64,000 nt of DNA from Siphonodentalium dalli (taxonomy: Eukaryota > Mollusca > Scaphopoda > Gadilida > Siphonodentaliidae): positions 220,486,205 through 220,550,204 of the forward strand of contig CP136064.1 in the NCBI GenBank assembly GCA_032622095.1. Direction: 5' to 3'. The notes beneath the pieces were generated by a model, which was not told where the DNA came from, ran no database searches, and worked only from the letters and a program-made list of their open reading frames with translations. The translations under genes were made by a program, and so were the position numbers. Positions 1-47,442 of the stretch are shown piece after piece (the stretch's first letter is position 1; the number at the start of each line of letters is the position of its first letter).

Positions 1-1706
1 ATATTGAAACCAGATGATTTATTAAGTCAAGCCTGCGCGAGTGCAAATGCGCCCAAAACATTACGCGTTCTTCTTCTACAAAATCAATGACGTCGATATA
101 ATTATGGTTGTCATTATGACCCTCTTGCATGTTTATCGAGAAATAATTGCAACTTGTCACGTGGTCGCCGACCAATCGGAATGCTCTGGATTTAGTGATA
201 ATCACACTCAGTATGTAAATATAAAGCCTTGATCGACGCATACGTTGTCAATAGTTTCGCTATCGAAACACCATATATATAGCCGTTATAAAAACAAACT
301 TGTATTAATATCTGCACCATTTTCGAACGCCATCCCTGAAACTGATGGCTTCACTTTAGCATATTTAACCCAGACCATTTGATTCCCTGTATCGTGTAAA
401 TGACTGTACAAGGTTTAGAGAAAATAGGCCACACGTCTTTTCCGCCAATATCTTCCTCGTAATATAGTTACGCTCCAAAATAAATAAAGTATCTATCTAT
501 CCAAATTGTCCCGCGTTAGTTGTTATAGCAGTCGAACAGACATACAGACATTCACAAAGATGGATGAGACTGAGCACATAGTTATGTTGTTGCAACTGGA
601 AGTTTCGAACCCTGAGTGTATATGGAATGGCTCTACATTGTATATAGGGTAACGAACGGAGGCATTATGGGTTGAAGGGGAGCTGTTCCCAACTTAGGAA
701 ATAATTATATGGATATCGCTTATTGTTATATGATAACTTCCACAGTAGCCGGACAACCGATCACATGGATATAAATCTTTAGAGTTCCAAATTTTGTCCA
801 ACGAATGTTTGCTCCACAATCTAATTTAAATTGGGTGATCAATTATATAGCAAAACTCAGCAAAGTGTGTGATGGTCATGCACCAAATACACATATTCAC
901 AAAGCTTCGGCGTACCAAATACACTTAACTGTGGCAACATGCATGCAATGACCCATACTATGATCGTGGGTGTAACAGATGACTTAGTAACTCGAAAGTA
1001 CGACCGAAAACTGAAATTAATGAGTTCCGAACTTTTTCAAATCTAACTAGAAATTGCGACTTTGAGGTTTGACTAAACTCGAAATGCAAAAAGTCCCATC
1101 CACGACTCTGAAATCAGTGTGTCGACATTTGAAATTTTGGGCATGTAACAATAAACAATCGAAAGTTTAGAGTTTACAGTTTATTTATTTTTTCAAATAT
1201 AATGTGGTGTTGTTTCGTTCGCGCGTTCAATATTTCAATCTCTAAATTCGTGTTTTCTTGCGCGTTATTTCCGGTTCCCTTTTGGCAGGTATACGACAAT
1301 ATCTGGCATATCAAATTACCCAGCTGGGGTCATTGTCTGGGGTGGGGTCAACATTTTTTTTAAATTTTAAAAGAGATTTCTAAACAATATCTAACTGTTA
1401 TTTGAGAAAACAAAGTCAAACTCTTGGGTCTCATGTCACCAGAAAATTGGCTACGTTTTGGGAATGCTCATAAAAAATCACATGTTTTCTTTCGAAACAA
1501 TTCCAGATAATAAGTAAATCCAATTTGGGTACTGTGCGCTAATTCAGACCATTTATGGGACCATCTCCTATTATACTGAACAGAATATATGCAACAAATG
1601 AATGAATGTGAGCCATGGGTGAATGCAAAATACACTCCGCTTCTCTGATAACGATAAGAACAATATGATACTTATAATGAAAATGAGTTAAGGACTCGGT
1701 ACCGCT
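1..1706. other. Unassigned A+T-rich DNA
   Basis: I see no convincing gene here; the reading frames are short and lack recognisable motifs. At 479-502 the sequence TAAATAAAGTATCTATCTAT resembles the short-repeat tail that follows many CR1/L2-type LINE copies, but no LINE coding sequence lies upstream in the window. Confidence 0.5.
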
Positions 1707-1710
1707 TTAA

Positions 1711-2233
1711 CGATACGGGCGGCGTTGGCGGTGGGTATGCTGTTAAAATATTCACCTCCATCAAACACCGCCATAAACAGAAAGAATAGTAAAATATAGA
1801 CAGACCTTGTTCTTATACCAATCAGAAATATGGCATAAACAGTATGTTATTGTTAATTGTTTTTCCTTTGTTACGTAAACAAAAGCAAAAAACGTTACGT
1901 TACCTGGCTTTTGTTTAGATCCGGATATGGTAAACATACAGAGCGTTATTTGTTACTGTTTTCCTGATATGGAAATAATAAAGAGCGTTTATATCATTTG
2001 TGTGCGATTAACCAATCGAATTGCGATGTGTTATGTAAACAGAAGCACAACTTCTGTAACATGAGCAGGCTCTTGTCTACGTACACCATCGTACTTCTTG
2101 ACGACAATATACTATTTACGCGATGATTATGTTTGGCATATGAACAAAACTATATATATATATATTAATATTCCTTCTTTTGATGGCGATTTGAACAAAT
2201 ATGAATATTTCTGCAACGAACGCCGCCCGTGCC
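1711..2233 (+). repeat. MITE family M2, complete copy
   Basis: This non-coding element of about 520 bp begins with GATACGGGCGGCGTT and ends with AACGCCGCCCGTGCC, so its ends are diverged inverted repeats; similarity continues inward for about 80 bp (AATATTCA and AGAATA... segments). The left end follows TTAA (1707-1710). Related copies lie at 25144-25480, 26429-26923, 30338-30832, 35627-35830 and, inverted, 63604-64000. TTAA flanks suggest a piggyBac-type or other TTAA-specific transposase acting in trans. It contains AATAATAAAGAGCGTTTAT at 1974-1992, which recurs in the palindromic element. Confidence 0.75.
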
Positions 2234-2239
2234 TATAAG

Positions 2240-3085
2240 TAATTACTCAAACAAGCAGGTATCTGCTTACCCGAAATTTAAAACGGTATATCTCAACTGT
2301 TCTGTTTTATCTCAGTTAACCACATTCATGTATAGGCGACTAGGGTGGGTAAAATATCCACCCAGTATAATTAAGGCCTTGAGTGGCCAGACTATATGAC
2401 ACCACTATATATGGGTATTAGCCGAGATAAAAGAAAATACTGTAGATTAGAATCGTCTTAATAAACGTGACTACAATCATATTCTTTCAAATTTAAACCA
2501 GTGAAAGGAAATGACGGATTACAAGCTTGCACACAAATGAGAAAATTACATACCATGCTAACCATTTCAAGTCGAACAGGGGGGGGGTAACTTTAGTGAA
2601 ACAACAAAACTCGAATGGATCTCATAATTGCCGGTGCACGTGTTAAATAATTTGGCTAATAAATGAAGTAATACTTGCTCGGACAAAACTACACGGTTGC
2701 AAACAAAATGCTAAGTTGAGTAAGGGGAATAACTCAACTAAAAGGTCCAACGGACCATAATTTCAGGTGCACATGTTCCCATGGTACAAAATATATTTGC
2801 CTAGTTTCCAAAACATTGACTACAAAATGAAGGAATCATATGTAGCTCGGATAATGTGGTTAGGGGGTGGTATAATAAATGAGATAAATTGACAAATATA
2901 ACGACGATGACATGACCAAATATTTCTTATATAACCCACAGCCGCAACTAACCCATGTACATAGTGTATATATGTGTTCCACATCATCTGACTCATGCGT
3001 ATACATGGTATTGTTTAAATTATCCAATCAGTAGGCATATGTATGGCTATGACTATGATTATTTATTTATAACTTGATAGATTAT
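2240..3085. other. Unassigned DNA
   Basis: No gene was recognised. The only notable feature is a run of about ten G at 2579-2588. Confidence 0.5.
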
Positions 3086-3088
3086 ATA

Positions 3089-3250
3089 GAGGGTAATCAA
3101 TTGGTTCCGAGAATTACGTTAAATAATTCTCGAGAGGCGAGAGACGTCGGTACGAAACGAGCGCTCGTTAGTGCACGAGTTTCGTACCTAAACGACTCTC
3201 GCCTCGAGTAAATTATATAACGTAATTCTCGGAACTAATTGATTACTCTA
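3089..3250. repeat. Foldback (long inverted-repeat) element
   Basis: An imperfect palindrome of about 160 bp. The left end reads AGGGTAATCAATTGGTTCCG and the right end is its near complement (CGGAACTAATTGATTACTCT). Pairing continues inward through GAATTACGTTA, GAGGCGAGAG and GGTACGAAAC, leaving a short loop around 3160. It has no coding capacity and behaves like a foldback MITE. Confidence 0.8.
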
Positions 3251-3509
3251 TTTATTACACTTCTGCATCAATTTGGTTCGCCAAACATGATTAAAACACA
3301 CAGAATTAGGGCATGAAAGTCCCGATGCGAGAAAGATCAACCATCGAAATTTCAGTCTAGATCAGTACGCGACGTAACGTCGATGACGTCACGAGAAATT
3401 ACAAATTCACTAGTGACAATTAATGTCGTTTTCAATGGAAATCGCACATAGAGTGTAATAAACACAATTAGTCAATTAAGAGGATTGTCCTATGTTCAAT
3501 CTAGTCATG

Positions 3510-4055
3510 TAGGTTGTGGTCCCCGGTGCTCAGTTGGCAATCAAACTCCGTATAGTTTCTCGTCGCTGCACAGCCTGTTCAGTTTCAGAGTTTACAGACG
3601 TATCCACGAGGTAAGGGCCACCACATGTTGGAGCCACCAGTAGGTATGCAATCTCTTCAAGTAGGTTGGGAACCCGATGTCTCAGTTGGTAATTAACCCT
3701 TTGAGTGCCAGGTCCGATTTTTGTATCAACCCATATACCCTGTGCCAATGCATTCTCTTATATATGCGAGTCGACCATAGGTCGCCTCGCATATATAAGA
3801 GAATGCATTGGCCTAACAATTTTTTATTTTTTTTTTATTTTTTACAATTTTAATAATTTATTCTTATATTCTTTAACAGACTTATTTTGTAGGTTTAGGG
3901 CCGATGAGATCGGCCCCTGGCACACAAAGGGTTTTAAATACCATGTAGTTTCTCGTACATGTAGCTGCATAGTCAGTTTCACAGTTGACATATGTATCCA
4001 TGAGGGTAAGCGTAAGGACCACCACAAGTTAGACCCACCAGTTCATACCCTCCAT
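3510..4055. repeat. Diverged direct duplication interrupted by an M1-like MITE
   Basis: The stretches 3548-3650 and 3945-4050 are related: both contain TAGTTTCTCGT, a CAGTTTCA block, GTATCCA(T/C)GAGG and a CCACCA(C)A(A/T)GTT(G/A)GA block. A TTAA-flanked MITE sits between them. No reading frame in the two copies is clearly conserved, so this is described only as a repeat. Confidence 0.5.
3697..3931 (+). repeat. piggyBac-like MITE (M1-related) with an internal hairpin
   Basis: The element starts CCCTTTGAGTGCCAGG directly after TTAA (3693-3696) and ends CCTGGCACACAAAGGG, followed by TTTTAA. CCC...GGG ends next to TTAA are the hallmark of piggyBac-family insertions; the right flank is imperfect. 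Inside, 3745-3812 is one copy of the palindromic hairpin CCAATGCATTCTCTTATATA... that recurs throughout the window. No transposase is encoded. Confidence 0.6.
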
Positions 4056-4404
4056 TTTGTTTTTTCATCGACGCACAGTCATAGCCGAGCTGTGGCACAC
4101 CTTGTGGAATCCACAAAGCATTGCCCTGACTATTCAACCAGGTTCCCTCGGTGACGCGATCTGAACCATCCAGGTCGAAGTGGTATCTTTCGTTAAGATC
4201 ACCTGGAATAATCAGAATGTATATGCATGTGTTTTGTGTTCTAAACGCCTGGAATTACGTGATTCGAGATGCATATTGAAAAAGCAAGTGAAACACCAAG
4301 CGTAGTATAAATGTATATGTACGGTACGCCGATTTTCAGTGCAGATAGTATAGGCCAGCCAATGCATCAAGGATTGGATACAAAACAATATCTAATGATT
4401 ATTA

Positions 4405-7245
4405 ACTAAACTAGCTGATGTACCGACTACGTGCGCGCTATTTAGGGATTTCTTTGTTATCGCCTCAGACTGGGCAGAATATACAGCGTCGGTCCAGAAA
4501 CATGCCTATATGACCGTATATGAGCGAGGTCGAGGTCAAGGTCAGGCAAACGGTCGCATGTGAAATTGGACCCGCCCATATTGTTCCCGGGATCAAAGTA
4601 GGTTTACATACCAAATTTGAGTCAATCGGTCGAGCAGTTTTCGAGTCTATAACACATACATACATACATGCACACATACATACACATGCATGCACATACA
4701 TACAGAAGTTCCAAAATATATAATAGACCAGCCGATGAGCCCGACGTTGTCCGGGTTATTCAAAAACCAAATTTCAAGTCGATAGCTCCACCCGTTTGCG
4801 AGATCTGGTCTGCACATGCGCGAAACGGGCGCCGAACGGTCTCGCCAATACGACAACGTCGACCGCCTGGTCAAACTACACACACGTACCAAGTTTCGTC
4901 CCGATCGGTCGAGAATCGTATATTTGTATAAATGACATACATACATACAGACATACAGACAGAGGTCTTCAAAATATATAGGAGACTAGCCGATGAGCCC
5001 GACGTTGTCCGAGCTATTCAAAAACCAAATTTCAAGTCGATAGCTCCACCCGTTTCCGAGATCTGGTCTGCGCATGCGCGAAGCTGGCGTCGCACGGGCT
5101 CGGCGACCCGATAAAATTCGTATCCGGGGCAAGATACATTCACATACCAAATTTAAAGTCGATAGCTCCACCCGTTTCCGGGATCTCGTCTGCGCATGCG
5201 CTGCACGGGCGTCGCACGGGCTCGCCAATACGACAACGACGACCGCCTGGTCAAACTACACATACGTACCAAGTTTTGTCCCGATCGGTCGAGAATCGTA
5301 GATTTGTATGAATGACATACAGACATACAGACAGACAGACAAACAAACAGAGGTCTTCAAAATATATTATAGACTAGCCGATGAGCCCGACGTTGTCCGG
5401 GCTATTCAAAAACCAAATTTCAAGTCGATAGCTCCACCCGTTTCCGAGATCTGGTCTGCGCATGCACGAAGCTGGCGTCGCACGGGCTCGGCGACCCGAT
5501 AAAATTCGTATCCGGGGCAAGATACATTCACATAGCAAATTTCAAGTCGATAGCTCAACCCGTTTCCGAGATCTCGTCTGCGCGTGCGCTGCACGGGCGT
5601 CACATGGGCTCGCCAATACGACAACGACGACCGCCTGGTCAAACTACACACACGTACCAAGTTTCGTCCCGATCGGTCGAGAATCGTAGATTTGTATAAA
5701 TGACATACATACAGACAGACAAACAGAGGTCTTCAAAATATATATGAGACTAGCCGATGAGCCCGACGTTGTCCGGGCTATTCAAAAACCAAATTTCAAG
5801 TCGATAGCTCCATCTGTTTCCGAGATCTGGTCTTCGTCTATGAGCCCGACGTTGTCCGGGCTATTCAAAAACCAAATTTCAAGTCGATAGCTCCCACCCG
5901 TTTCCGAGATCTGGTCTCGATAGCTCTACCAGCCCGATATTACCCGTTTCCAAGATCTGGTCTGTGCATGCGCGAAGCTGGTGTCGCAGGGGCTCGGCGA
6001 CCCGATAAAATTCGTATCCGTGGCAAGATACATTCACGTACCAAATTTCAAGTCGATAGCTCCACCCGTTTCCGAGATCTCGTCTGCGCATGCGCGAAGC
6101 TGGCGTCGCACGGGCTCGGGGACCCGATAAAATTCGTATCCGAGGCAAGATACATTCACATAGCAAATTTCAAGACGATAGCTCCACCCGTTTCCGAGAT
6201 CTCGTCTGCGCATGCGCGAAGCGGGCGCCGCACGGGCTCGCCAATACGACAACGTCGACCGCCTGGTCAAACTGCACACACGTACCAAGTTTCGTCCCGA
6301 TCGGTCGAGAATCGTAGATTTGTATAAATGACAAACAGACAGACAGACAAACAGACAGAGGTCTTCAAAATATATATGAGACTAGCTGATGTGCCCAACT
6401 TCGTCCCGCCTATTCGGGGATTTCTTTGTGATCGCCTCCGTCTGGGCAGAATATACAGCGTCTGGATAACTATCGTTCGATCGGCCCAGAAACATGTATA
6501 TATGAGCGTATATGAGCGAGGTCAAGAACACGGTCGCAAGTGAAATTGGACCCGCCCATATTGTTCCCGGGATCAAAGTAGGCATATATACCAGATTTGA
6601 GTCGGATCGGTCGAGGTCCAGAAACACGGCTGTATGAGCGTATATGAGCTAGGTCAAGGTCAATGACACAGTCGGACGTGAAAATGGACCCGCCCATATT
6701 GTTCCCGGGATCAAAGTAGGCCTATATACCAAATTCGAGTCCGATCGGTCGGGCAGTTTTCGAGTCTATAACACACACATACAAAAAGACATAAGTTCCA
6801 AATTATATAATAGACCAGGTGATGTGCCAGACTTCGTCCGGGCTATTTAGGGATTTCTTTGTGATCTGGACAAACTAGTGTTCGATCGGTCCAGAAACAT
6901 GCATATATCAGCGTATATGAGCGAGTTCAAGGTCACTGACATGATCGCACATGAAATTGAACCCGCCCATATTTTTCCCGGGATCAAAGTAGGCCTACAT
7001 ACCAGATTTGAGTCGGATCGATCGATGTCCAGACATTTAAGTCGGATATGGGCGTATATGAGCGAGGTCAAGGACACGGTCGCACGTGAAATTGGACCCT
7101 CCCATATTGTTCCCGGGATAGGCTTAAATACCAAATTCGTGTCGTATCGGTCGAACAGTTTTCGAGTCTATAACACATACACACATACATACAGGCAGAC
7201 AAGACAGACAGACGTTCCACAAAATATAATAGATAACGGAGATAT
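4405..7245 (+). repeat. Composite array of type A and type B interspersed repeats
   Basis: Units are joined head to tail. Each begins near AGACTAGC(T/C)GATG and ends in a CATACA/GACA microsatellite followed by TTCCAAAATATATAATAG or CTTCAAAATATATATGAG. Type A units (about 4410-4727 and 6385-7240) carry GATTTCTTTGTGATCGCC and TTGTTCCCGGGATCAAAGTA. Type B units (about 4728-6380) carry AGCCGATGAGCCCGACGTTG and an internal subrepeat of about 122 bp with CTCGTCTGCGCATGCGC in varying copy number. The many short open frames here are by-products of the repetition. The transposon class is uncertain; the tails would suit a LINE or SINE 3' end. Confidence 0.75.
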
Positions 7246-9282: not shown

Positions 9283-9757
9283 ACATATATGTGACCCGCC
9301 ATATCAAATCCTGTCGTAAGTCGGGATTTTTTTTACCCTGTGCGAATGCATTCTCTTATATATGCGAGTCGACCATTGGTCGCCTCGCATATATAAGAGA
9401 ATGCATTGGCATAACAGTTTTTTAATATTTTTTTTAAATAAATGTTTCTTACAATTTTTAGGACATAAAATAAAAAACATCCATAACCCTGCAGGGAGCC
9501 CCACATATATATAGAAGCATATAGAAGAGTGTCGTCTGCTCATGTTTGTCTGGGGCTCTGTATGGGTGAAATTATAAAATTGTTAAAGAATACAAGCAAA
9601 AATTATTAAAATTGTAAAAAATTGTTAGGCCAATGCATACTCTTATATATGCGAGGCGACCTATGGTCGACTCACATATATAAGAGAATGCATTGGCACA
9701 GGGTAAAAAAAAATCCCGACTTACGACTGGATTTGATATGGCGGGTCACATATATGA
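9283..9757. repeat. Nested foldback element with two internal hairpins
   Basis: The outer inverted repeats are about 55 bp each: CATATATGTGACCCGCCATA ... AAGTCGGGATTTTTTT on the left, and the complementary TCCCGACTTACGAC ... TATGGCGGGTCACATATATG on the right. Inside lie two palindromic hairpins (9342-9410 and 9629-9697), separated by about 220 bp of A+T-rich spacer and bordered by CCCTGTG / CACAGGG. It ends about 120 bp before the large palindrome. No coding sequence. Confidence 0.75.
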
Positions 9758-9872: not shown

Positions 9873-9878
9873 AATGTG
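9873..9878. repeat. 6-bp target-site duplication, left copy (AATGTG)
   Basis: AATGTG directly abuts the left end of the 8.5-kb palindrome and is repeated exactly at 18420-18425 directly after its right end. Six-bp duplications are characteristic of Maverick/Polinton integration by a retroviral-type integrase. Confidence 0.85.
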
Positions 9879-10498
9879 AGTAGTATGGGGGTCTCGTTAC
9901 CTCCACATCTAAAAATAGATTTTATGGGGGTAAAATTGTTTGTACTAAAATATTCCCAAAAAAATATTTCAAAACCCAAAAAAAAATTTCTCAAAATTTT
10001 CAACAAAAAAAAATTTTAATCTCAAAAAATTTCTAACGAGTTTTCGGTCTCTTACCCAAATATCGGGCCGACTATTAAATGTCGAATGTTTTTTAAATTA
10101 TTTGCGTGTAATATGTTTCGTTATTTTTGTTCAAACAAATTTTAAATATTTTTCATGAAACTCTGTTAATTTTATTAATCGATGTTTAGAAATAGCTTTA
10201 TACCAATTATATGTGTATGGACAGGTCCGAGTCACGGTAATTTCGGTCATTGACACTATAGGTATGAATGCATACATTCCAGTGTTTATCAATCAGACGC
10301 AGTCCATGCATCATATAATTGTCATACCTGAAATAATTTGACACCATTACTCTTACATGAATAATAAAGAGCGTTTATTCTTTACTTCTCTATCCCGATG
10401 AAGTTATTGAGTATATGACAGGTGTGCATTATCGCGAATTATTGGAAGTATTGAGATGTTGTACTATTTTGAAAGCAGTCACGATATTTGAGCGTGTC

Positions 10499-10713
10499 CA
10501 AAAAAATTCAAAAACTTCCAAAACTTCCAAAACTTCCAAAACTTTCAAAAATTTCAAAAATTTCAAAAACTTCAAAAACTTCAAAAACTTCAAATTTATT
10601 TAAAATTTCAAAAACGTTTTTGAAATTTCAAAAATTTCAAAAACTTCAAAAATTTCAAAAACTTCAAAAATTTCCAAAATTTCAAAAACTTCAAAAATTT
10701 CCAAAAATTTCAA
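10499..10713. repeat. 9-bp minisatellite, left arm
   Basis: About 215 bp of units close to TTCAAAAA(C/T)(T) in the left arm of the palindrome. The mirror array in the right arm (17679-17800) is only about 122 bp. The difference equals the whole 93-bp length difference between the outer arms. Long lysine/phenylalanine/serine-rich frames across it are low-complexity by-products. Confidence 0.9.
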
Positions 10714-11269
10714 TATATAATGAAGATGACGAGCAACCAATTTTCGACTGGCCTGAGACATTACGTTATGGAATGAATAACGACAGCGGATCAGAATGTG
10801 ATCATACACGCAATAATAGAAGTTACTTTGATGTTGTTATGAATAGAATTTTATCAACCTTACGTATTAACAGTTTATTGAGTTATGCATACATATAGTA
10901 CGTCACTTGGACATTTTAACAGTTTATCACGTGATCACTAAATGTGGCAATCGGGTATCCACCGATGCCTGCAATGTATTATTTATAATAATTGGACTCA
11001 TTGATCTCACGTAAATAATACTCTTAGTTGTTCCAATAAAATAGTTATCAAATTCGATCACCAATAGATTTGACTGTGGAATATAATGACCTTTAACTTA
11101 TTTATCGATCTATGTTAGAACATGGTCTTAACAAAAAACTTGACCATAACAAAAATTACCTTACATTTATGCATGAATCTAATTAGACCATGCGTAAATA
11201 TTGTCAGCTTATCGCCTGATGAGCAAATCCGATGTTTATCAAAAATAGTACAACTTCCAGTTGGTAATA
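10714..11269. other. Unassigned part of the left arm
   Basis: Single-copy sequence within each arm, mirrored at about 17125-17678 with only scattered substitutions. No open frame of note and no promoter-like element that I can defend. Confidence 0.5.
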
Positions 11270-11905
11270 ACTCTTACGAATGAAGAGCGTTGAACATATA
11301 CGAAATTACTACACGAATGAACTGAAATTTATATTTCACATCTTACCAACAACAGATACAGACATAGTCATAGTGTTATACTGTATTACATGTACCCATG
11401 CTATGACATCAATAGAAGGGGCAATACACTCAAGGAGTTAAAGTGACACGAAACAAGGGACGTGATGTAATATTGGTGTTTGAATCTTAAAGGAACACAA
11501 GACACTCTAAAGGGACACTCATTATGAATGAATGTTAACAATACAAGCGCACGAATGAAGAGCGTTGAACATATACGAAATTACTACACGAATGAATTGA
11601 ACCTTGAAATTTATATTTCACATCTTACCAACAACAGCTACAGACATAATCATAGTGTTATACTGTCTTGCATGCACACACGCTATGACATCATTAAAGG
11701 CGGACAATCCACTCACGGTGTGACAACAGATACAGACATAGGCATAGTATTATACTGTCTTGCATGTGCACACGCTATGACATCATTAAAGGAACACAAG
11801 ACACTCATTATGAATGAATGTTAACAATAAACGCACCGGTGTTTGAATATTAAAGGAACTCAATACACTCATTATGAATGAATGTTAACAATACAAGCGC
11901 AGTGG
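11270..11905. repeat. Cluster of interspersed direct repeats downstream of the ATPase gene, left arm
   Basis: Several motifs recur at irregular spacing: ACGAATGAAGAGCGTTGAAC at about 11277 and 11551, ACAGATACAGACATAG-type blocks at about 11349, 11636 and 11725, and CATTATGAATGAATGTTAAC at about 11520, 11806 and 11871. The cluster is mirrored in the right arm at about 16495-17120. A 98-codon open frame across it is made of these repeats and is not called as a gene. Such a cluster could hold replication or packaging signals, but that is a guess. Confidence 0.75.
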
Positions 11906-12072
11906 TTGAAAGTTAAAATGACACAGAACAATATTTAAAGTTCAAATTTTCGGGCACTTAATGCGCCTTTTATCATTACGTATCGTTTCTCACTCTACAA
12001 TTCCCAATAATCCACTCACTCTCTCCCCGCTTATAGATATATAACGAAAACGAGAATATCATGTTGATGAAG

Positions 12073-12078
12073 TTTATT
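12073..12078 (-). terminator. Polyadenylation signal AATAAA of the left ATPase gene
   Basis: On the minus strand AATAAA lies only five bases beyond the stop codon of the 12084-13784 gene, implying a very short 3' untranslated region, as in compact viral genes. It mirrors 16313-16318. Confidence 0.7.
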
Positions 12079-12083
12079 GAAAT

Positions 12084-13784
12084 TTAATCGTCCGAATTGT
12101 CATCACTTTCGTCAGAAGTGTCATTTATTTCGTCCATGAATTTTTCTAGCATCGGTTTGTACTTTAATATTGACATTTTCACTGCATCACATTCTCCATA
12201 ACCATTATTCAAATATTTGTCGACTTTATCCATGACTCTGTTGTGCAGAGTCCCATTGCGCAGCTGCAGATACGATACTATTGTCCAAGCATAACCATTC
12301 ATAAAGTGCATCATATCTTTACTTTTAAGGTCCTTGTCAGCTTGTTCTTTTGCTTCTGTTTCTTTCGAACCATTTTCCTTATACGTGTCCACTTTATCAC
12401 TCCATTCCTCATGTGTTTTATCTCTACTCTCAGCACACAAACTTTTGAAGTATTCATCTTCATTCAATTTAATTTTCTTATTCTGACTATCATCCGTGTC
12501 CTCAGTTAATTTTCGTTTTAACTTATTTTCTTGACACCAGTTTTTTACGTGTCTCTGAACATCATAATGATCTTCGAACAAAAGCCCGCAGTCATTACAA
12601 GGGTACGACATGTCTTCTCGAATGTCTATGTTTTGACGGTTCTTCTTATTAATTTCATCGAGCTCACCAGGTGGCCTTATGTCGTTAGTATAGTCATTAT
12701 GTTGACCCTGGGGCACAATATAATTATATGTTATGCCCTTCTGTTGACCAGGGAGTTCTCTGTCATCGTATTTCATCGCATTCTGCTGACCCTGGGTCTC
12801 AGTGTCTTTTGTATGTTTTTTCATCCCATTCTGTTCATCTGGGTGTTCTCTGTCTTTTTGGAGATTATATTTCATGCCATTCCATTCACCAATATGTTGG
12901 TTCGTGTCCTCTTTTAGTACATTCTGTCGCAGACGTAATGTGTCCGGTGTTGCGGCTTTTAAATCCACCAGTAGGTAACCGTACGGTTCACTCGTCGCTT
13001 CCGAAAACTCTCGAACCATACGCTGAGGACATTCAGGATACATCTGTCTTGATAATGTTGAAATTAATCCCTTGTCGATTGGGTTATTGAACAATACCAA
13101 ATATTGACAATTTCGTCGTTGCGTTGGATCTTTGTTGTAGTAGAAATTCTGGTTCAAACTTATCAAAGATAAGTTCAAATGGTGACTTCCTTCGGAATGC
13201 AAATCATTAACTCTCTGGTCTTTTGATGAAGTTTGCATCAAGTCATCGAGTATAACTAGATTTTTATACCGGGGGTTGATAAGAGAATCCAAGTTTGCTG
13301 GTATTCCTCGTATAAAGTTGACCTGAGGGGTGACGGTATACTTTATTTCGTCATATAGGGGCTGCCAATATTTATAAAACCATATTATTCTGTCAGGTGC
13401 GGGTGATATTTTTGAGGCAGACTTTTGTAGCAAGGTTTTCACGAAGTATGTCTTACCACTAGATGTCGGTCCACTTACACATGCCGTGAATGGATGCTTG
13501 AAAATAAAATCTTCTTGGACATTGGCCATTGGATCATCAAAGCAGGATGTTATGTCGCTTTGTTGCTGTTTCCCCTGCTGGTGTTGTAGTATCTGGTGTT
13601 GCTGTAATGGCTGTTGTTGTGGCTGATGATGCTGCTGCCTGTTGCTGCTACTGTTTGTTGCTGCTGCTTGGTGCTGCTGTTGTGGGTGTCGGTTAACAAA
13701 CTCAGTGTGCTTAGATTGTACATGTCTTATCAAATCATGGTTCCGCACATACTCACTAGAGCAAATTGAACACTGGTGCTTCAT
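12084..13784 (-). CDS. A32/FtsK-like packaging ATPase with terminal zinc fingers, left copy
   Basis: A 566-residue intronless protein. Residues 5-26 form a C2H2 finger (C5, C8, H21, H26), and 35-76 are rich in Gln/His. Residues 92-290 form the ATPase core: Walker A GPTSSGKT (105-112), Walker B NLVILDDLM (175-183, acidic pair 180-181), GSHH at 199-202 and a polar NQN (211-213) in the sensor position. Four or so imperfect Gln/Gly/Met-rich repeats lie at about 298-365. A second finger (C396, C399, H412, C417) is followed by a charged tail ending DDNSDD. A32-like ATPases drive DNA into viral capsids and are hallmark Polinton genes; the finger fusion is unusual. A TATA-like box lies about 37 bases upstream of the ATG. 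It differs from the right-arm copy by one residue seen (Gln36 here, Glu there). Family assignment is from motifs and memory of the family. Confidence 0.75.
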   Translation of the reverse strand: MKHQCSICSSEYVRNHDLIRHVQSKHTEFVNRHPQQQHQAAATNSSSNRQQHHQPQQQPLQQHQILQHQQGKQQQSDITSCFDDPMANVQEDFIFKHPFTACVSGPTSSGKTYFVKTLLQKSASKISPAPDRIIWFYKYWQPLYDEIKYTVTPQVNFIRGIPANLDSLINPRYKNLVILDDLMQTSSKDQRVNDLHSEGSHHLNLSLISLNQNFYYNKDPTQRRNCQYLVLFNNPIDKGLISTLSRQMYPECPQRMVREFSEATSEPYGYLLVDLKAATPDTLRLRQNVLKEDTNQHIGEWNGMKYNLQKDREHPDEQNGMKKHTKDTETQGQQNAMKYDDRELPGQQKGITYNYIVPQGQHNDYTNDIRPPGELDEINKKNRQNIDIREDMSYPCNDCGLLFEDHYDVQRHVKNWCQENKLKRKLTEDTDDSQNKKIKLNEDEYFKSLCAESRDKTHEEWSDKVDTYKENGSKETEAKEQADKDLKSKDMMHFMNGYAWTIVSYLQLRNGTLHNRVMDKVDKYLNNGYGECDAVKMSILKYKPMLEKFMDEINDTSDESDDNSDD

Positions 13785-13820
13785 TTATACTTGACTAAAA
13801 TGTCTCGGTATATGGATTTC

Positions 13821-13827
13821 CTTTATA
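13821..13827 (-). promoter_or_regulatory. TATA-like box of the left ATPase gene
   Basis: Reading the minus strand, TATAAAG lies 36-43 bases before the start codon, with GTATAAAGGAAAT context. It mirrors 14564-14570. Initiation about 30 bases downstream would leave a very short leader. The box is seen in the sequence; its use is inferred. Confidence 0.5.
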
Positions 13828-14162
13828 CAAATGTTCATTATAACCTAAAAATATGTCCTGTCCGTATGTTTGATAACTTTATGTAGATGAAATAGTCTGC
13901 CGGAGAAGCACTGTGTAGACGGGGAATCAACAGGTCTTGTCGGTAAGAGAGTCAGATGAGAAGTGAAGTCTCGGCTATTAAAACATAGTAATGCGATAGC
14001 GAACATCAAACGAGTCTGGGCACGCATATCTGTCAAAAGATACAATAGCCGTCATTGGTCAATCTATCCTCGGTATCACTTTTCGATTTACAAAATCAAT
14101 TTCACCGAGAGGTTCCCTCGTCATTTGTAGTGACGTAATTGCGGCGTATTGCGGTATTTTAC

Positions 14163-14238
14163 TGCGGTGGCGCCGGCGCCGGCGCCGGCAGCGGCAACAA
14201 CGGCGGCGGCGGCGGTTGTTGGCGGCGGCGGCGCCGCA
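14163..14238. repeat. GGC/GCC-rich centre of the palindrome
   Basis: The symmetry centre of the 8.5-kb inverted repeat is about 75 bp of GGCGCC, GGC and GCC triplet runs with GGCAACAACGGC and GGTTGTTGGC blocks. It is flanked on both sides by CGCAGTAAAATACCGCAATT and its complement and by GTAGTGACGTAATT. Single strands should fold into a strong hairpin. It also separates the two divergent ATPase genes by about 820 bp. Triplet slippage probably explains the arm differences here. Confidence 0.85.
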
Positions 14239-14563
14239 GTAAAATACCGCAATTACGTCACTACAAATGACGAGGGAACCTCTCGGTGAAATTGATTTTG
14301 TAAATCGAAAAGTGATACCGAGGATAGATTGACCAATGACGGCTATTGTATCTTTTGACAGATATGCGTGCCCAGACTCGTTTGATGTTCGCTATCGCAT
14401 TACTATGTTTTAATAGCCGAGACTTCACTTCTCGTCTGACTCTCTTACCGACAAGACCTGTTGATTCCCCGTCTACACAGTGCTTCTCCGGCAGACTATT
14501 TCATCTACATAAAGTTATCAAACATACGGACAGTACATATTTTTAGGTTATAATGAACATTTG

Positions 14564-14570
14564 TATAAAG
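14564..14570 (+). promoter_or_regulatory. TATA-like box of the right ATPase gene
   Basis: TATAAAG about 37 bases before the ATG at 14607, an exact mirror of the left-arm box. Use as a promoter is inferred. Confidence 0.5.
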
Positions 14571-14606
14571 GAAATCCATATACCGAGACATTTTAGTCAA
14601 GTATAA

Positions 14607-16307
14607 ATGAAGCACCAGTGTTCAATTTGCTCTAGTGAGTATGTGCGGAACCATGATTTGATAAGACATGTACAATCTAAGCACACTGAGTTTGTTAACC
14701 GACACCCACAAGAGCAGCACCAAGCAGCAGCAACAAACAGTAGCAGCAACAGGCAGCAGCATCATCAGCCACAACAACAGCCATTACAGCAACACCAGAT
14801 ACTACAACACCAGCAGGGGAAACAGCAACAAAGCGACATAACATCCTGCTTTGATGATCCAATGGCCAATGTCCAAGAAGATTTTATTTTCAAGCATCCA
14901 TTCACGGCATGTGTAAGTGGACCGACATCTAGTGGTAAGACATACTTCGTGAAAACCTTGCTACAAAAGTCTGCCTCAAAAATATCACCCGCACCTGACA
15001 GAATAATATGGTTTTATAAATATTGGCAGCCCCTATATGACGAAATAAAGTATACCGTCACCCCTCAGGTCAACTTTATACGAGGAATACCAGCAAACTT
15101 GGATTCTCTTATCAACCCCCGGTATAAAAATCTAGTTATACTCGATGACTTGATGCAAACTTCATCAAAAGACCAGAGAGTTAATGATTTGCATTCCGAA
15201 GGAAGTCACCATTTGAACTTATCTTTGATAAGTTTGAACCAGAATTTCTACTACAACAAAGATCCAACGCAACGACGAAATTGTCAATATTTGGTATTGT
15301 TCAATAACCCAATCGACAAGGGATTAATTTCAACATTATCAAGACAGATGTATCCTGAATGTCCTCAGCGTATGGTTCGAGAGTTTTCGGAAGCGACGAG
15401 TGAACCGTACGGTTACCTACTGGTGGATTTAAAAGCCGCAACACCGGACACATTACGTCTGCGACAGAATGTACTAAAAGAGGACACGAACCAACATATT
15501 GGTGAATGGAATGGCATGAAATATAATCTCCAAAAAGACAGAGAACACCCAGATGAACAGAATGGGATGAAAAAACATACAAAAGACACTGAGACCCAGG
15601 GTCAGCAGAATGCGATGAAATACGATGACAGAGAACTCCCTGGTCAACAGAAGGGCATAACATATAATTATATTGTGCCCCAGGGTCAACATAATGACTA
15701 TACTAACGACATAAGGCCACCTGGTGAGCTCGATGAAATTAATAAGAAGAACCGTCAAAACATAGACATTCGAGAAGACATGTCGTACCCTTGTAATGAC
15801 TGCGGGCTTTTGTTCGAAGATCATTATGATGTTCAGAGACACGTAAAAAACTGGTGTCAAGAAAATAAGTTAAAACGAAAATTAACTGAGGACACGGATG
15901 ATAGTCAGAATAAGAAAATTAAATTGAATGAAGATGAATACTTCAAAAGTTTGTGTGCTGAGAGTAGAGATAAAACACATGAGGAATGGAGTGATAAAGT
16001 GGACACGTATAAGGAAAATGGTTCGAAAGAAACAGAAGCAAAAGAACAAGCTGACAAGGACCTTAAAAGTAAAGATATGATGCACTTTATGAATGGTTAT
16101 GCTTGGACAATAGTATCGTATCTGCAGCTGCGCAATGGGACTCTGCACAACAGAGTCATGGATAAAGTCGACAAATATTTGAATAATGGTTATGGAGAAT
16201 GTGATGCAGTGAAAATGTCAATATTAAAGTACAAACCGATGCTAGAAAAATTCATGGACGAAATAAATGACACTTCTGACGAAAGTGATGACAATTCGGA
16301 CGATTAA
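14607..16307 (+). CDS. A32/FtsK-like packaging ATPase with terminal zinc fingers, right copy
   Basis: This is the mirror-image twin of 12084-13784, with the same 566-residue length and domain order: N-terminal C2H2 finger, Gln/His-rich linker, P-loop core with Walker A (105-112) and Walker B (175-183), repeat-rich linker, C2HC finger (396-417) and an acidic tail. The only protein difference I see is Glu at residue 36 where the left copy has Gln. Both frames are open across 1.7 kb with no stop or frameshift, while all other mobile-element genes in the window are wrecked. That suggests the insertion is recent or the arms are kept alike by gene conversion. The start is chosen at the first ATG, which puts the first zinc-finger Cys at residue 5 and lies just behind a TATA-like box. 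Confidence 0.75.
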   Translation: MKHQCSICSSEYVRNHDLIRHVQSKHTEFVNRHPQEQHQAAATNSSSNRQQHHQPQQQPLQQHQILQHQQGKQQQSDITSCFDDPMANVQEDFIFKHPFTACVSGPTSSGKTYFVKTLLQKSASKISPAPDRIIWFYKYWQPLYDEIKYTVTPQVNFIRGIPANLDSLINPRYKNLVILDDLMQTSSKDQRVNDLHSEGSHHLNLSLISLNQNFYYNKDPTQRRNCQYLVLFNNPIDKGLISTLSRQMYPECPQRMVREFSEATSEPYGYLLVDLKAATPDTLRLRQNVLKEDTNQHIGEWNGMKYNLQKDREHPDEQNGMKKHTKDTETQGQQNAMKYDDRELPGQQKGITYNYIVPQGQHNDYTNDIRPPGELDEINKKNRQNIDIREDMSYPCNDCGLLFEDHYDVQRHVKNWCQENKLKRKLTEDTDDSQNKKIKLNEDEYFKSLCAESRDKTHEEWSDKVDTYKENGSKETEAKEQADKDLKSKDMMHFMNGYAWTIVSYLQLRNGTLHNRVMDKVDKYLNNGYGECDAVKMSILKYKPMLEKFMDEINDTSDESDDNSDD

Positions 16308-16312
16308 ATTTC

Positions 16313-16318
16313 AATAAA
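16313..16318 (+). terminator. Polyadenylation signal AATAAA of the right ATPase gene
   Basis: AATAAA five bases after the stop codon at 16305-16307, mirroring 12073-12078. Confidence 0.7.
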
Positions 16319-16494
16319 CTTCATCAACATGATATTCTCGTTTTCGTTATATATCTATAAGCGGGGAGAGAGTAAGTGGATTATTGGGAATTGTAGAGTG
16401 AGAAACGATACGTAATGATAAAAGGCGCATTAAGTGCCCGAAAATTTGAACTTTAAATATTGTTCTGTGTCATTTTAACTTTCAACCACTGCGC

Positions 16495-17120
16495 TTGTAT
16501 TGTTAACATTCATTCATAATGAGTGTATTGTGTTCCTTTAATATTCAAACACCGGTGCGTTTATTGTTAACATTCATTCATAATGAGTGTCTTGTGTTCC
16601 TTTAATGATGTCATAGCGTGTGTACATGCAAGACAGTATAACACTATGCCTATGTATGTATCTGTTGTCACACCGTGAGTGGATTGTCCGCCTTTAATGA
16701 TGTCATAGCGTGTGTGCATGCAAGACAGTATAACACTATGATTATGTCTGTAGCTGTTGTTGGTAAGATGTGAAATATAAATTTCAAGGTTCAATTCATT
16801 CGTGTAGTAATTTCGTATATGTTCAACGCTCTTCATTCGTGCGCTTGTATTGTTAACATTCATTCATAATGAGTGTCCCTTTAGAGTGTCTTGTGTTCCT
16901 TTAAGATTCAAACACCAATATTACATCACGTCCCTTGTTTCGTGTCACTTTAACTCCTTGAGTGTATTGCCCCTTCTAATGATGTCATAGCATGGGTACA
17001 TGTAATACAGTATAACACTATGACTATGTCTGTATCTGTTGTTGGTAAGATGTGAAATATAAATTTCAGTTCATTCGTGTAGTAATTTCGTATATGTTCA
17101 ACGCTCTTCATTCGTAAGAG
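16495..17120. repeat. Cluster of interspersed direct repeats, right arm
   Basis: Mirror of 11270-11905. GTTAACATTCATTCATAATG recurs at about 16502, 16566 and 16854; GTTCAACGCTCTTCATTCGT recurs at about 16820 and 17096. Small differences from the left arm exist (for example around 16653-16657). No gene is called. Confidence 0.75.
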
Positions 17121-17678
17121 TTATTACCAACTGGAAGTTGTACTATTTTTGATAAACATCGGATTTGCTCATCAGACGATAAGCTGACAATATTTACGCA
17201 TGGTCTAATTAGATTCATGCATAAATGTAAGGTAATTTTTGTTATGGTCAAGTTTTTTGTTAAGACCATGTTCTAACATAGATCGATAAATAAGTTAAAG
17301 GTCATTATATTCCACAGTCAAATCTATTGGTGATCGAATTTGATAACTATTTTATTGGAACAACTAAGAGTATTATTTACGTGAGATCAATGAGTCCAAT
17401 TATTATAAATAATACATTGCAGGCATCGGTGGATACCCGATTGCCACATTTAGTGATCACGTGATAAACTGTTAAAATGTCCAAGTGACGTACTATATGT
17501 ATGCATAACCCAATAAACTGTTAATACGTAAGGTTGATAAAATTCTATTCATAACAACATCAAAGTAACTTCTATTATTGCGTGTATGATCACATTCTGA
17601 TCCGCTGTCGTTATTCATTCCATAACGTAATGTCTCAGGCCAGTCGAAAATTGGTTGCTCGTCATCTTCATTATATAT
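17121..17678. other. Unassigned part of the right arm
   Basis: Mirror of 10714-11269, with a few substitutions. No gene or other feature is supported. Confidence 0.5.
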
Positions 17679-17800
17679 TGAAATTTTTGGAAATTTTTGA
17701 AGTTTTTGAAATTTTTGAAATTTTGGAAGTTTTTGAAGTTTTTGAAATTTTTGAAATTTTTGAAAGTTTTAGAAGTTTTGGAAGTTTTTGAAATTTTTTG
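17679..17800. repeat. 9-bp minisatellite, right arm
   Basis: About 122 bp of units close to TTTTTGAA(A/G), the mirror of the longer array at 10499-10713. It has contracted, or the left one has expanded, by about 93 bp since the palindrome formed. Confidence 0.9.
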
Positions 17801-18419
17801 GACACGCTCAAATATCGTGACTGCATTCAAAATAGTACAACATCTCAATACTTCCAATAATTCGCGATAATGCACACCTGTCATATACTCAATAACTTCA
17901 TCGGGATAGAGAAGTAAAGAATAAACGCTCTTTATTATTCATGTAAGAGTAATGGTGTCAAATTATTTCAGGTATGACAATTATATGATGCATGGACTGC
18001 GTCTGATTGATAAACACTGGAATGTATGCATTCATACCTATAGTGTCAATGACCGAAATTACCGTGACTCGGACCTGTCCATACACATATAATTGGTATA
18101 AAGCTATTTCTAAACATCGATTAATAAAATTAACAGAGTTTCATGAAAAATATTTAAAATTTGTTTGAACAAAAATAACGAAACATATTACACGCATATA
18201 ATTTAAAAAACATTCGACATTTAATAGTCGGCCCGATATTTGGGTAAGAGACCGAAAACTCGTTAGAAATTTTTTGAGATTAAAATTGTTTTTTTTTGAA
18301 AATTTTGAGAAAAAAAATTTGGGGTTTTGAAATTTTTTTTGGGGAATATTTTAGTACAAACAATTTTACCCCATAAAATCTATTTTTAGATGTGGAGGTA
18401 ACGAGACCCCCATACTACT

Positions 18420-18425
18420 AATGTG
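18420..18425. repeat. 6-bp target-site duplication, right copy (AATGTG)
   Basis: Exact match to 9873-9878 and directly adjacent to the right end of the palindrome. Confidence 0.85.
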
Positions 18426-25143: not shown

Positions 25144-25480
25144 AAGATACGGGCGGTGTTGGTGGTGGGTATGCTGTTAAAATATTAAACATAAAGAGCG
25201 TTATTTGTTACTGTATTCCTGATATGGAAATAATAAAGAGCGTTTATATCATTTGTGTGTGATTAACCAATAGAATTGCGCTGTGTTATGTAAACAGAAG
25301 CAAAACTTCTGGAACACGAGAAGGCTCCTGTTTACGTACACCATCGTACGTCTTGACGACAATATATTATTTACGCACTGATTATGTTTGGCATATGAAC
25401 AAAACTATATATATTGTAATATTCCTTCTGTTGATGGCGATTTGAACAAATATGAATATTTCTGCAACGAACGCCACCCG
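25144..25480 (+). repeat. MITE family M2, copy with internal deletion
   Basis: Starts TTTAAAGATACGGGCGGTGT, jumps from the first 50 bp straight to AACATAAAGAGCGTTATTTG, and ends AACGAACGCCACCCG. AATAATAAAGAGCGTTTAT is present near 25229. The upstream breakpoint of the tandem duplication (25390) lies inside this element. Confidence 0.75.
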
Positions 25481-26032
25481 TTTTTTTTCTTCTGAAATAC
25501 AACAAATTTTCATTGGAAATTCCAGAATTTGCTTCAACTGAAAGTGGGGAATTGGTGCTGAAATTGCGAATTTGATGCTGAAATTGGTGCATTCCAGCAG
25601 CATGCAAAAAGACGAAAACATACCAAAAGTTGTTAACCCTTTAACTGTGGCATGTAACAGATCCAGAAAAGACTGGATTTAGGTTGTTGACACATAAATC
25701 CAAACTTACATCGATTTAGATATAAATATGAAGATGCTGGTGTAGCGAGACATTTGTTTGAACCTGGCGATAATCTATTTACTTTTTACCTTACTTCTGC
25801 TTAGTATCATATCTTTTTTATAAATGCAGGCTATTGCTAATATTTAGGTTTTTCATGGGGATTCGATGGAATGTAATTAGTATGTAGTTCAAGTATTATC
25901 ATTTGGATTATCTACCAGTGGCTATTTATTTTCAAAACTCATGAGAGAGGTCATAAAACATTGGAGGAAATTTATATTATGTTTGTGGACGACGGAATCG
26001 GTGTTAATTCTGATCAAATGCTGGCGCATTAA

Positions 26033-26424
26033 CCCTTTACCCAACAGAAGGGCCCTGTGCCAATGCATTCTCTTATATATGCGAGTCGACCATAGGTCGC
26101 CTCGCATATATAAGAGAATGCATTGGCTTAACACATTAAAAATTATAAAATTGTTAAAGAATGTAAGAAAAAATGGTAAAAAGTCTGAAAAAAAGATTTT
26201 TTTTAGGCCAATGCATTCTCTTATATATGCGAGGCGACCTATGGTCGACTCGCATATATAAGAGAATACATTGGCACAGGGCATAACTGTAACTATCACA
26301 ATGTGGTCAAGGAGCCGGTTCCAATGATATCCATATTTGTATGGTTCTATTGAGACAGACCGAAGATATTTTAGGCTGTTGAAGCTTTCTTTGGCCGGTT
26401 TTGGCCGGTTTGTTGGGTAAAGGG
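26033..26424. repeat. MITE M1 (piggyBac-like) with hairpin-spacer-hairpin core
   Basis: Starts CCCTTTACCCAACAGA and ends TGTTGGGTAAAGGG, with TTAA on both sides (26029-26032, 26425-26428), as expected of piggyBac-type insertion. The core holds two palindromic hairpins (26059-26127 and 26207-26275) around an A+T spacer, bordered by CCCTGTG and CACAGGG. It is repeated at 29942-30333 and inverted at 52161-52541. A frame of about 210 codons across it on the minus strand is not a gene. Confidence 0.8.
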
Positions 26425-26428
26425 TTAA

Positions 26429-26923
26429 AGGTACGGTTGGCCTTGGCGGTGGGTATCCTGTGAAAATATTTCCACCCGTCAAAAACCGCCACAAACAGAA
26501 AGAACAACAAAATGTAGACAGACTTTGTCCGTATACAAATAAGATATATCGCATAAACAGTATGTTATTGTCATATTTTCGACCATTGTTATGTAAACAG
26601 AAGCCTAAAAAGTTACTTTTCTGGTGTTTGTTTATATTATGATGGTAAACATAAAGAGCGTTCTTTGTGGATGAATTCCTGATATGGAACGAATAAAGAG
26701 CGTTTATGCCATTTGTGTGTGATTAGCCAGCAGCATTGTGTTGTCTTCTGTAACACAATCAGGCTCTTGCTTAGGTAAAATATAGTAAATCTTTATGATA
26801 ACATGCTGTTTACGCGATGGTCATGGTATTATATGAACGAAACTGTATGCGTTTTAATGTTTTTTTGTTTACGGTGATTGGAACAAATATGAATATTTTC
26901 GACAATTAAGGCCTCACGTGCCT
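26429..26923 (+). repeat. MITE family M2, diverged copy with TTAA on both sides
   Basis: Begins AGGTACGGTTGGCCTTGGCG and ends CGTGCCT, flanked by TTAA at 26425-26428 and 26924-26927. The left TTAA is shared with the adjoining M1, so two TTAA-specific elements sit back to back on one target site. Confidence 0.75.
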
Positions 26924-27010
26924 TTAAGACGTGTGTCGTGCCAAATGTCAACTCTGTAAGATTTGGTTTCATATTAACAGAGGAAAAATCTAATTGGGAG
27001 CCGAGGCAAA

Positions 27011-27560
27011 TTGTGGTCGATGTCGGTCTCGTTTGTCAACGGAAACATGATGATTACAAACGAGGAAGTAAACAATCTTTTGAATCGTGAAAAGAATGGG
27101 ATACTTTTAGTTAAAGCACGATATTTAGCAGGGGTTGCCGGACAAATAAGTTCATGTATCATTGTTCTGGGTGACACGGCCAGTTTCTGTACCAAAAATA
27201 TGAACCATTGTCTGAACTGTAGAGCAAGTTGGAATGCGAAAGTTATATTAAATAACAAAGTCATTAGTGAGCTATTGTACTTGGGCACATGATGAAGAGT
27301 CACTTAGCTCTAAATGGATAGAGCGTGAGGCAGTGCATCGTGCATTGTTGGATTATACTAGTAGTTTGAATGCAAGGGAGAGATCGATGCGATGGGCCAT
27401 TGATAATAAAAATGTTTAGCAACATTTTGTATACGGATAGTAAGAAGCCCAATTTACGAAAGATGGCTATAACAATACATAATGTATGTGATGAATACAA
27501 ATGAAAATTTAACACTCCAGGCGACCTTGATCGTTCCGAAGTGGATTTCAGCTATTTTGA
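27011..27560 (+). pseudogene. DIRS-like retroelement RT/RNase H relic, copy 1
   Basis: The open part (27011-27292, 93 codons) reads VKARYLAGVAGQISS and later CRASWNAKVILN followed by ISELLYLG. These fit the connection between reverse transcriptase and RNase H in DIRS-type elements. Downstream, across stop codons and frameshifts, pieces such as SSKWIEREAVHRALLDY and WAIDNKNV match the RNase H region with its TDN-like motif, then PNLRKMAI. DIRS elements copy via RNA and insert with a tyrosine recombinase instead of an integrase. The relic is broken by several stops and lacks the RT catalytic part. It lies upstream of the recombinase relic in the usual order. Confidence 0.6.
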
Positions 27561-27727
27561 CCCTTGCTATGTAGCTATAATTGGAAATTGTATAGTTTCG
27601 CAGAAGGTTGTTGTGTTCTGCTAATCAAGAATATTGTAAGCAAGGGCATGTAAATAACGAAGTATTCGGAAAGTACAAAATGTATTTATGTATATTAATT
27701 GCATTAAAGGTAGATTTCAATGACATA

Positions 27728-28815: not shown

Positions 28816-28959
28816 TGCAACTTGTATCTGAAATATCTTATGTTCCTGTACAACTGCGCTGTGTGGATAGGATGATAATTATTTTTATTTGAAGTGAGAT
28901 TGTATCATACATGGCTGTATTGTAAGTTTAATGTATGTCAAACGTCAAGACTGCTCTAA

Positions 28960-30333: not shown

Positions 30334-30337
30334 TTAA

Positions 30338-30832: not shown

Positions 30833-30919
30833 TTAAGACGTGTGTCGTGCCAAATGTCAACTCTGTAAGATTTGGTTTCATATTAACAGAGGAAAAATCT
30901 AATTGGGAGCCGAGGCAAA

Positions 30920-47408: not shown

Positions 47409-47442
<34 letters not shown>

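Follow-up and report, generated by a model that had tools for sequence, protein, structure and literature searches.

Palindromic elements with Polinton ends in the scaphopod Siphonodentalium dalli: a probable lineage of non-autonomous satellites

A 64,000-nucleotide stretch of the Siphonodentalium dalli genome (NCBI GenBank assembly GCA_032622095.1, contig CP136064.1, positions 220,486,205 to 220,550,204 of the forward strand), referred to below as the window, contains an element of 8541 bp that is palindromic over its whole length, ends in the terminal repeat of a Polinton of the same genome and lies between direct 6-bp target-site duplications. Relatives of this element recur at other places in the genome, many with 6-bp duplications of their own. 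The element probably belongs to a lineage of palindromic, non-autonomous Polinton satellites that swap terminal repeats with Polintons and in which each insertion starts as a perfect palindrome.

The boundaries of the element can be read directly from the DNA. At the left end, AATGTG (9873-9878) is followed by AGTAGTATGGGGG from 9879, and at the right end CCCCCATACTACT runs up to 18419, where AATGTG follows again (18420-18425). The original prediction of a perfect-ended palindrome with a 6-bp duplication is correct as to the exact ends, the AATGTG on both sides and the initial AG, the terminus reading AGTAGT; the arms themselves are imperfect, with 25 mismatches, and the predicted span of 9873-18425 takes in both duplications, the element proper being 9879-18419. 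Each arm measures ~4.2 kb; of the 4189 pairs in the arm-to-arm alignment, 4164 match and 25 (0.6%) do not. The alignment also contains 169 gap letters, 92 of them in a (TTCAAAAA)n tract and almost all others at the centre (6 of the 169 are the left AATGTG, which was taken into the arm alignment). The longest inverted blocks comprise 3546 nt at 99% and 688 nt at 96%. The features of the element are as follows, with terminal-repeat identities given to L029 and L031, two pieces of the Polinton described below.

9879..18419, unstranded: whole palindromic element, type I (ATPase type), 8541 bp
9873..9878, unstranded: left target-site duplication AATGTG, 6 bp, read from sequence
18420..18425, unstranded: right target-site duplication AATGTG, 6 bp, read from sequence
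9879..10473, plus strand: left terminal repeat common to the Polinton, starting AGTAGT; 95.5% to L029, 95.8% to L031
17825..18419, minus strand: right terminal repeat common to the Polinton; 95.1% to L029, 94.6% to L031
10500..10716, unstranded: (TTCAAAAA)n-like tract of the left arm; the right-arm counterpart (about 17673-17800) is shorter
11276..11925, unstranded: internal repeat module of the left arm; mirror counterpart at about 16466-17115
12084..13784, minus strand: left-arm open reading frame, 566 aa, with a C2H2 finger, an A32-like P-loop ATPase, a second finger and a C-terminal region
14607..16307, plus strand: right-arm open reading frame, 566 aa, differing from the left frame by 1 residue
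14148..14253, unstranded: centre, a GC-rich loop (GGCGCC/GGC with AAC), with TGACGTAATTGCGG and GCGGTATTTTACTGCG on each side

The Polinton with the same end as the window element lies at C4:165204843-165222411 (17.6 kb), with ATTGTA on both sides and a terminal repeat of 1147 bp at 96%. It encodes PolB in an 832-aa frame (PF03175, 5.6e-46; piece L029), an integrase of 376 aa (rve 2.6e-14, chromodomain 8e-7; piece L031) and an ATPase with the motif GPTGSGKT. A 148-aa frame bears a weak likeness to adenovirus protease (E 0.005, below cut-off), and a 420-aa frame, for which searches of Pfam, PHROGs and PDB returned no match, is by position a guess for the capsid gene; the PHROGs search gave a single weak match, for a 107-aa frame (E 0.023). 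A second Polinton, at C3:231194884, is flanked by CCTGTC on both sides, and in the 3.4 kb that were read its integrase (residues 10-294) and ATPase are 98% and 99% identical to those of the C4 Polinton. The genome thus does hold a Polinton with the expected end, which disposes of the possibility that no related Polinton exists anywhere in it.

What the window element shares with this Polinton is confined to the outer ~595 bp, at 94.6-95.8% identity. The L029 PolB frame has no match in 9879-18419 by tblastn, the L031 integrase frame has none either, and of ten Polinton frames besides the ATPase, the 420-aa one included, none matches the window element. The window ATPase is 31% identical to that of the Polinton over 119 residues and is oppositely oriented: it reads towards the nearest terminal repeat, whereas in L031 the gene begins close to the terminal repeat and runs in the other direction. 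A full-length Polinton sharing both end and ATPase had been anticipated, and it materializes for the end (~95% over ~595 bp); the ATPases remain at 31%. The associated proposal that the adjacent ATPase gene was copied back together with one Polinton end is not shown, because nothing beyond the terminal repeat is common to both elements and their ATPases are so dissimilar. With Polinton ends, the same duplication length and no detected mobility genes, the window element is classed from its sequence as a non-autonomous Polinton derivative.

Relatives were sought in the host genome (2.23 Gb, 9 contigs) with the outer 1.1 kb of the element. Of 2777 candidates 40 were scored, and these gave 50 matches; a second search likewise scored 40 candidates, of 1152, so that copy numbers throughout are lower bounds. 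Twenty matching places were taken, L009-L018 for two facing matches and L019-L028 from single matches; the copies studied are accordingly those nearest to the window's outer arm, and half of the first 20 were chosen for a facing partner. An inverted repeat of at least 0.73 kb is present in 17 of the 20 fetched places, including 7 of the 10 single-match places, and none was seen within the piece fetched at L019, L024 and L025. The copy L030, from the second search, is also inverted and carries GGTGTC on both sides. Five further facing pairs were found, with identical 6-mers in 4, and the two that were opened are palindromes: L059, whose two ATPase frames are 566 and 565 aa long, is 99.3% identical to the window's inner arm, and L060 (C4:191835500-191840500) encodes a relative (64-70%) of a 191-aa finger protein described below, while the P-loop part of the ATPase found no match in its piece. 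Together these make at least 20 inverted copies besides that of the window (17 fetched, L030, L059 and L060). Among 21 places including the window, 17 have both ends in the piece, and the flanking 6-mers are identical in 14 of these, all 14 being different. The imperfect cases are L009 (5/6), L012 (4/6) and L022 (3/6); L012 reads TTTAGT on both sides if one extra AGT is granted at its left end, and L022 reads CATGTG on both sides if ten extra bases are granted at its right end.

Palindromes are a known artefact of single-molecule reads, and an assembly or foldback-read origin would explain mirrored arms without any mobile element. The ends coincide with direct 6-bp duplications at many places, however, and the arms carry real differences. 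Since the palindrome ends exactly at its duplication and recurs elsewhere with other duplications, chance is excluded and a foldback artefact is so unlikely as to be nearly negligible.

At C8:25385420-25393090 (L052, L053), the fifth of the further facing pairs, the ends have the inverted flanks CAGACG and CGTCTG, with no direct duplication, and the mirror perhaps extends into host DNA. The palindrome L021:13-6805, with CATGTA on both sides, lies within PolB of a different and less closely related Polinton; tblastn aligns PolB residues 323-486 just before it and 490-832 just after it, at 35-38% identity to L029, and L021 is, judged from these flanking matches, a nested Polinton-family insertion.

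Many of the palindromes also share a centre. Among 19 palindromes (the window, the 17 fetched and L030), 15 are inverted over 70-100% of their length, L023 being judged on an incomplete piece. The sequence beside the window's centre is found in 14 of 22 places and in 12 of the 19 palindromes, and on both sides in seven (window, L012, L014, L016, L020, L021 and L022); L019 and L024 have it and are not shown to be palindromes. Across copies the central loop is GC-rich with GGC/GCC and AAC triplets, its sequence varying, and the shortened arms of L009 and L010 are joined there. In the window, the central 236 nt (14080-14315) form a hairpin with a strong predicted fold (z -23), as expected for a palindrome. 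The single snap-back event first envisaged gives way here to a multi-copy lineage, many of whose copies have a common centre. Beside the central loop, at 14128-14160 and its mirror, both arms carry TGACGTAA, which resembles a CRE/ATF site and would suit a two-way promoter at the centre.

The history of the arms is recorded most clearly at the ends. End statistics were computed for 17 elements with both ends (15 palindromes and 2 Polintons) and 40 ends in all, leaving out the pairs C109338, C131509, C191833, C25385 and C59900, the lone end C191822, and P231068, which has the same duplication and almost the same ends as P231194. Divergence between the two ends of one element has a median of 0.40% (largest 1.86%), compared with a median of 4.64% (smallest 1.02%) between elements. 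The nearest end is an element's own partner in 33 of 34 cases, the remaining one being L020_R, to which an L021 end is equally near to two decimals, and 10,000 random pairings never gave a mean below 0.0306, the observed value being 0.0060. Positions 8-13, taken as the terminal 6-mer, agree between the two ends in all 23 palindromes or facing pairs compared, and 20,000 shuffles gave at most 13; in L011 and L013 one position outside this 6-mer differs between an element's own ends. Partner ends are grouped on the tree in 17 of 17 elements, two of these being identical pairs without a support value. Apparent heterotypic ends in C109338, C131509 and C191833 were rejected, their differences being confined to the 165-450 region, where the C109338 sequence is a (TTTCAAAAA)n-like tract and not terminal repeat; C25385 and C59900 also align poorly there.

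Individual variants in six complete copies follow the same pattern. Thirty-two terminal and 28 interior variants occur in both arms of every carrier, 11 terminal and 43 interior variants occur in one arm of one copy, and 4 terminal and 1 interior variant are of mixed pattern. Because non-private variants are nearly always present in both arms and one-arm variants resemble post-insertion mutations, the copies seem to be born as perfect palindromes. The main rival to such a start holds that the palindromes spread as stable units and that their arms are alike only via post-insertion gene conversion in the chromosome. Gene conversion between arms is known from long palindromes in other genomes, and the inner part of the arm (region B) differs by just 0.15-0.82% within the six copies tested, as conversion would allow. 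It is a poor match for the 60 of 65 non-private variants that stand in both arms of every carrier, and for the equal divergence of terminal repeat and interior within a copy, which an insertion clock predicts and which holds in 4 of 6 copies, with 2 of 6 misfitting. Conversion as the sole source of arm identity is consequently considered quite unlikely, and a perfect palindrome at insertion remains the preferred interpretation.

Ends and interiors, in turn, have separate histories. Six type I arms were compared (window, L009, L012, L013, L014 and L019, the last with one arm only), and over the 15 pairs the terminal repeat (165-590) differs by 0-4.03%, compared with 0.37-0.58% for the interior (901-4200); the terminal repeat is the more divergent of the two in 13 of 15 pairs (Fisher p < 0.05, best 7e-9). 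A higher mutation rate in the terminal repeat is unlikely to be the whole cause, because within-copy divergence is equal in the four copies just mentioned, though not in L018 and L020. The end of the window element is nearest to that of the Polinton (1.8-2.4%), with a palindrome's end next (3.2%), and is sister to the Polinton's on the tree (support 0.916); its interior lies 0.37-0.48% from those of the five other type I copies. An end closest to the Polinton joined to an ordinary type I interior would be explained if one end had been swapped with a Polinton's and then copied to the opposite end.

The coding capacity of the window element consists of the two 566-aa frames, one per arm and reading outward from the centre, which are its only open reading frames of at least 150 aa. 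The protein matches Pox_A32 at 28 bits (cut-off 22.8; E 1.8e-6), in agreement with the A32-like ATPase originally predicted, and the C2H2 fingers N- and C-terminal of the ATPase part are matches below cut-offs. Comparison with solved structures gave one short finger match (E 0.35), and a predicted structure of the ATPase domain was not used (mean pLDDT 30.9). Among the viral contigs searched, there was no relative of the 566-aa ATPase and no match to the element's end pattern. The internal repeat module exists in two sequence types across copies, with windows 26-35% apart. Selection ratios for the ATPase lie at 0.29-0.82 between the two module types and, where they are defined, at 0.12-1.87 within type I. 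Singleton variants (27 nonsynonymous, 10 synonymous) are near neutral, and the copies are too young to reveal selection on the ATPase.

Descent from a Polinton is most apparent in a second gene-content type. Type II comprises L017, L027 and L030, palindromes that carry collinear Polinton DNA. In L017 and L027 this DNA is 86-88% identical to the Polinton and extends from the last 22 integrase codons through a 163-aa frame, the Polinton-derived part being shortened in one arm of L027, and L030 keeps just a 78-bp edge of the block. All three have the same junction, where the 107-aa frame is lost together with the middle of a 145-aa frame and the opening 20 codons of the 420-aa frame. A 70-bp block at 97% recurs, closer to the ends in the case of L030 and to the centre in that of L017. 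A Polinton stretch whose internal deletion is identical in all three type II copies makes descent by deletion and inverted duplication visible there, and a snap-back origin, as first proposed, is in keeping with these relatives; for the window element, which shares the terminal repeat only, it is not directly apparent.

The type II elements also encode the 191-aa finger protein, stopped in L017 after 122 residues, which matches residues 394-563 of the 566-aa protein (24%, E 4e-11) and its N-terminal finger. Neither the 191-aa protein nor the C-terminal part of the 566-aa protein has a match in L029, L031 or L058. Given this likeness between the types and the lack of a match in those Polinton pieces, the two types seem to have in common a finger/C-terminal accessory protein that was not seen in the Polinton; the 566-aa protein of type I has the appearance of this protein with an ATPase inside it.

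If each palindrome were instead an independent snap-back product of a Polinton, comparable to a defective-interfering genome and incapable of spreading any further in palindromic form, plainly deleted type II arms amounting to a doubled piece of Polinton would be natural, and ends within a copy would be alike, as in products of one template. Independent events would yield differing centres and junctions. The common centre in 12 of 19 palindromes, the same deletion in 3 of 3 type II copies and type I interiors only 0.37-0.58% apart argue against them, and this account is regarded as highly improbable.

For a lineage of satellites that spread as palindromes, a replication cycle can be proposed on the model of protein-primed replication in adenovirus and phi29. 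The first palindrome would have arisen when a Polinton replication intermediate folded back with loss of inner genes, a product visible in type II. Polinton PolB and integrase would then copy and integrate the satellites in trans via the common terminal repeat. A displaced single strand could fold back to half its length as a hairpin, its single open end being an authentic origin, and synthesis continuing round the loop would restore the full palindrome. Template switching or repair at the hairpin stage would copy one arm to the other, giving identical arms in each new insertion, and a terminal repeat swapped with that of a Polinton would be carried to both ends by the next cycle. The type I ATPase, which bears fingers and is related to packaging ATPases, might, more speculatively, steer Polinton capsids to the satellite. 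At the left end of L012 the AGTAGT terminus is preceded by one extra AGT (about 463-465), which gives the impression of a one-triplet slip in protein-primed replication; adenovirus replication starts by jumping back, which the AGTAGT repeat and this extra AGT would fit.

Several observations weigh against a palindromic satellite lineage of this kind. L009, L010, L016 and L021 (4 of 19) are inverted over only 27-50% of their length, and three of them (L010, L016, L021) nonetheless have perfect duplications, so that exact symmetry may be unnecessary for insertion. The window's centre sequence was not found in 7 of 19 palindromes (L011, L015, L017, L023, L027, L028 and L030). The separation of ends from interiors fails in two pairs, L009 and L019 having identical terminal repeats with an ordinary interior and L012 and L013 giving p 0.067, and L018 (p 0.048) and L020 (p 0.002) show more within-copy difference in the terminal repeat. 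On the side of the putative helper, the C4 Polinton ATPase match is split over two frames in L031. The two Polintons seen contain no close source of the type I ATPase, and a snap-back origin of type I therefore rests on analogy with type II; constraint on this ATPase is weakly supported. Gene conversion in the chromosome could also keep arms identical, and the replication and mobilisation steps are inferred, none having been observed.

These four partly inverted copies speak for the view that the elements are ordinary non-autonomous deletion derivatives of Polintons, in which palindromy merely supplies two ends. Such derivatives would not readily account for inversion over 70-100% of the length in 15 of 19 copies belonging to at least two gene-content types, and the shortened arms of L009 and L010 meet the GC-rich loop, as expected of later deletion from an unstable palindrome; this alternative is judged unlikely. 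The palindromic satellite lineage remains the probable interpretation. A wider generalization is possible, though more doubtful: a diversified clade of dedicated palindromic Polinton satellites in this eukaryotic genome, in which a hairpin renews both arms from a single template in every cycle, terminal repeats are re-acquired from active Polintons, and a finger-tagged ATPase or accessory protein diverts particles. If true, it would be a eukaryotic counterpart of phage satellites.

Other repeats were recorded in the window and at the chromosome ends. A 105-bp inverted repeat (92%) at 9327-9712, by its looks a small hairpin element, stops ~160 bp left of the insertion. Large repeats span 25382-33585: direct repeats at 25382 and 29291 (99%) are spaced by 3909 bp, as is an identical 210-aa frame at 25922 and 29831, and those at 28843 and 33286 (100%) are spaced by 4443 bp. 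Tandem arrays at 4934-6359 and 46310-47830 are mutually inverted and 92-95% alike, both lying in higher-G+C stretches. (CCCTAA)n was seen at 1 of 11 chromosome ends examined, which argues against most insects as host.

Among the matches listed in searches of open-licence PMC papers, no description of a palindromic Polinton satellite was found, and PMC12368964, PMC6431247 and PMC11071308 are not about such palindromic elements. A multi-copy family of palindromic satellites would preserve, in arms renewed together and ends exchanged with Polintons, a natural record of replication, and would also offer genes that can be tested for a part in packaging. It would bear on how Polintons, regarded as both transposons and viruses, replicate, and on whether they make particles or have parasites of their own.

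Among known systems, the closest are the Polintons or Mavericks themselves (polintoviruses, adintoviruses), with which the window element has in common the 6-bp duplication, AG-starting ends, an A32-like ATPase and a terminal repeat ~95% identical to that of a 17.6-kb Polinton of the same genome. It departs from them in its size of 8.5 kb, its whole-length palindromy, an ATPase that is present twice and fused to C2H2 fingers, and a PolB and integrase that were not found in it. Snap-back or symmetric defective genomes are known from adenovirus and yeast linear plasmids, those of yeast being palindromic and hairpin. For adeno-associated virus (AAV), PMC8235507 describes snapback genomes as satellites that regulate rep expression and packaging of the parent. 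These adenovirus, yeast plasmid and AAV genomes resemble the present elements in the inverted duplication of one end, the loss of inner genes and the possession of two authentic ends; they are extrachromosomal products, whereas the elements described here form an integrated, multi-copy and diversified lineage. Phage-inducible chromosomal islands redirect packaging, and the satellites would be alike by analogy, with no homology claimed, if they bring a packaging component and use helper capsids. Very long inverted repeats are also found in Foldback (FB) elements and other DNA transposons. These share the target duplication as well, but the arms described here contain genes, have the terminal repeat of a Polinton at their outer end and come together at a GC-rich loop of ~0.1 kb.

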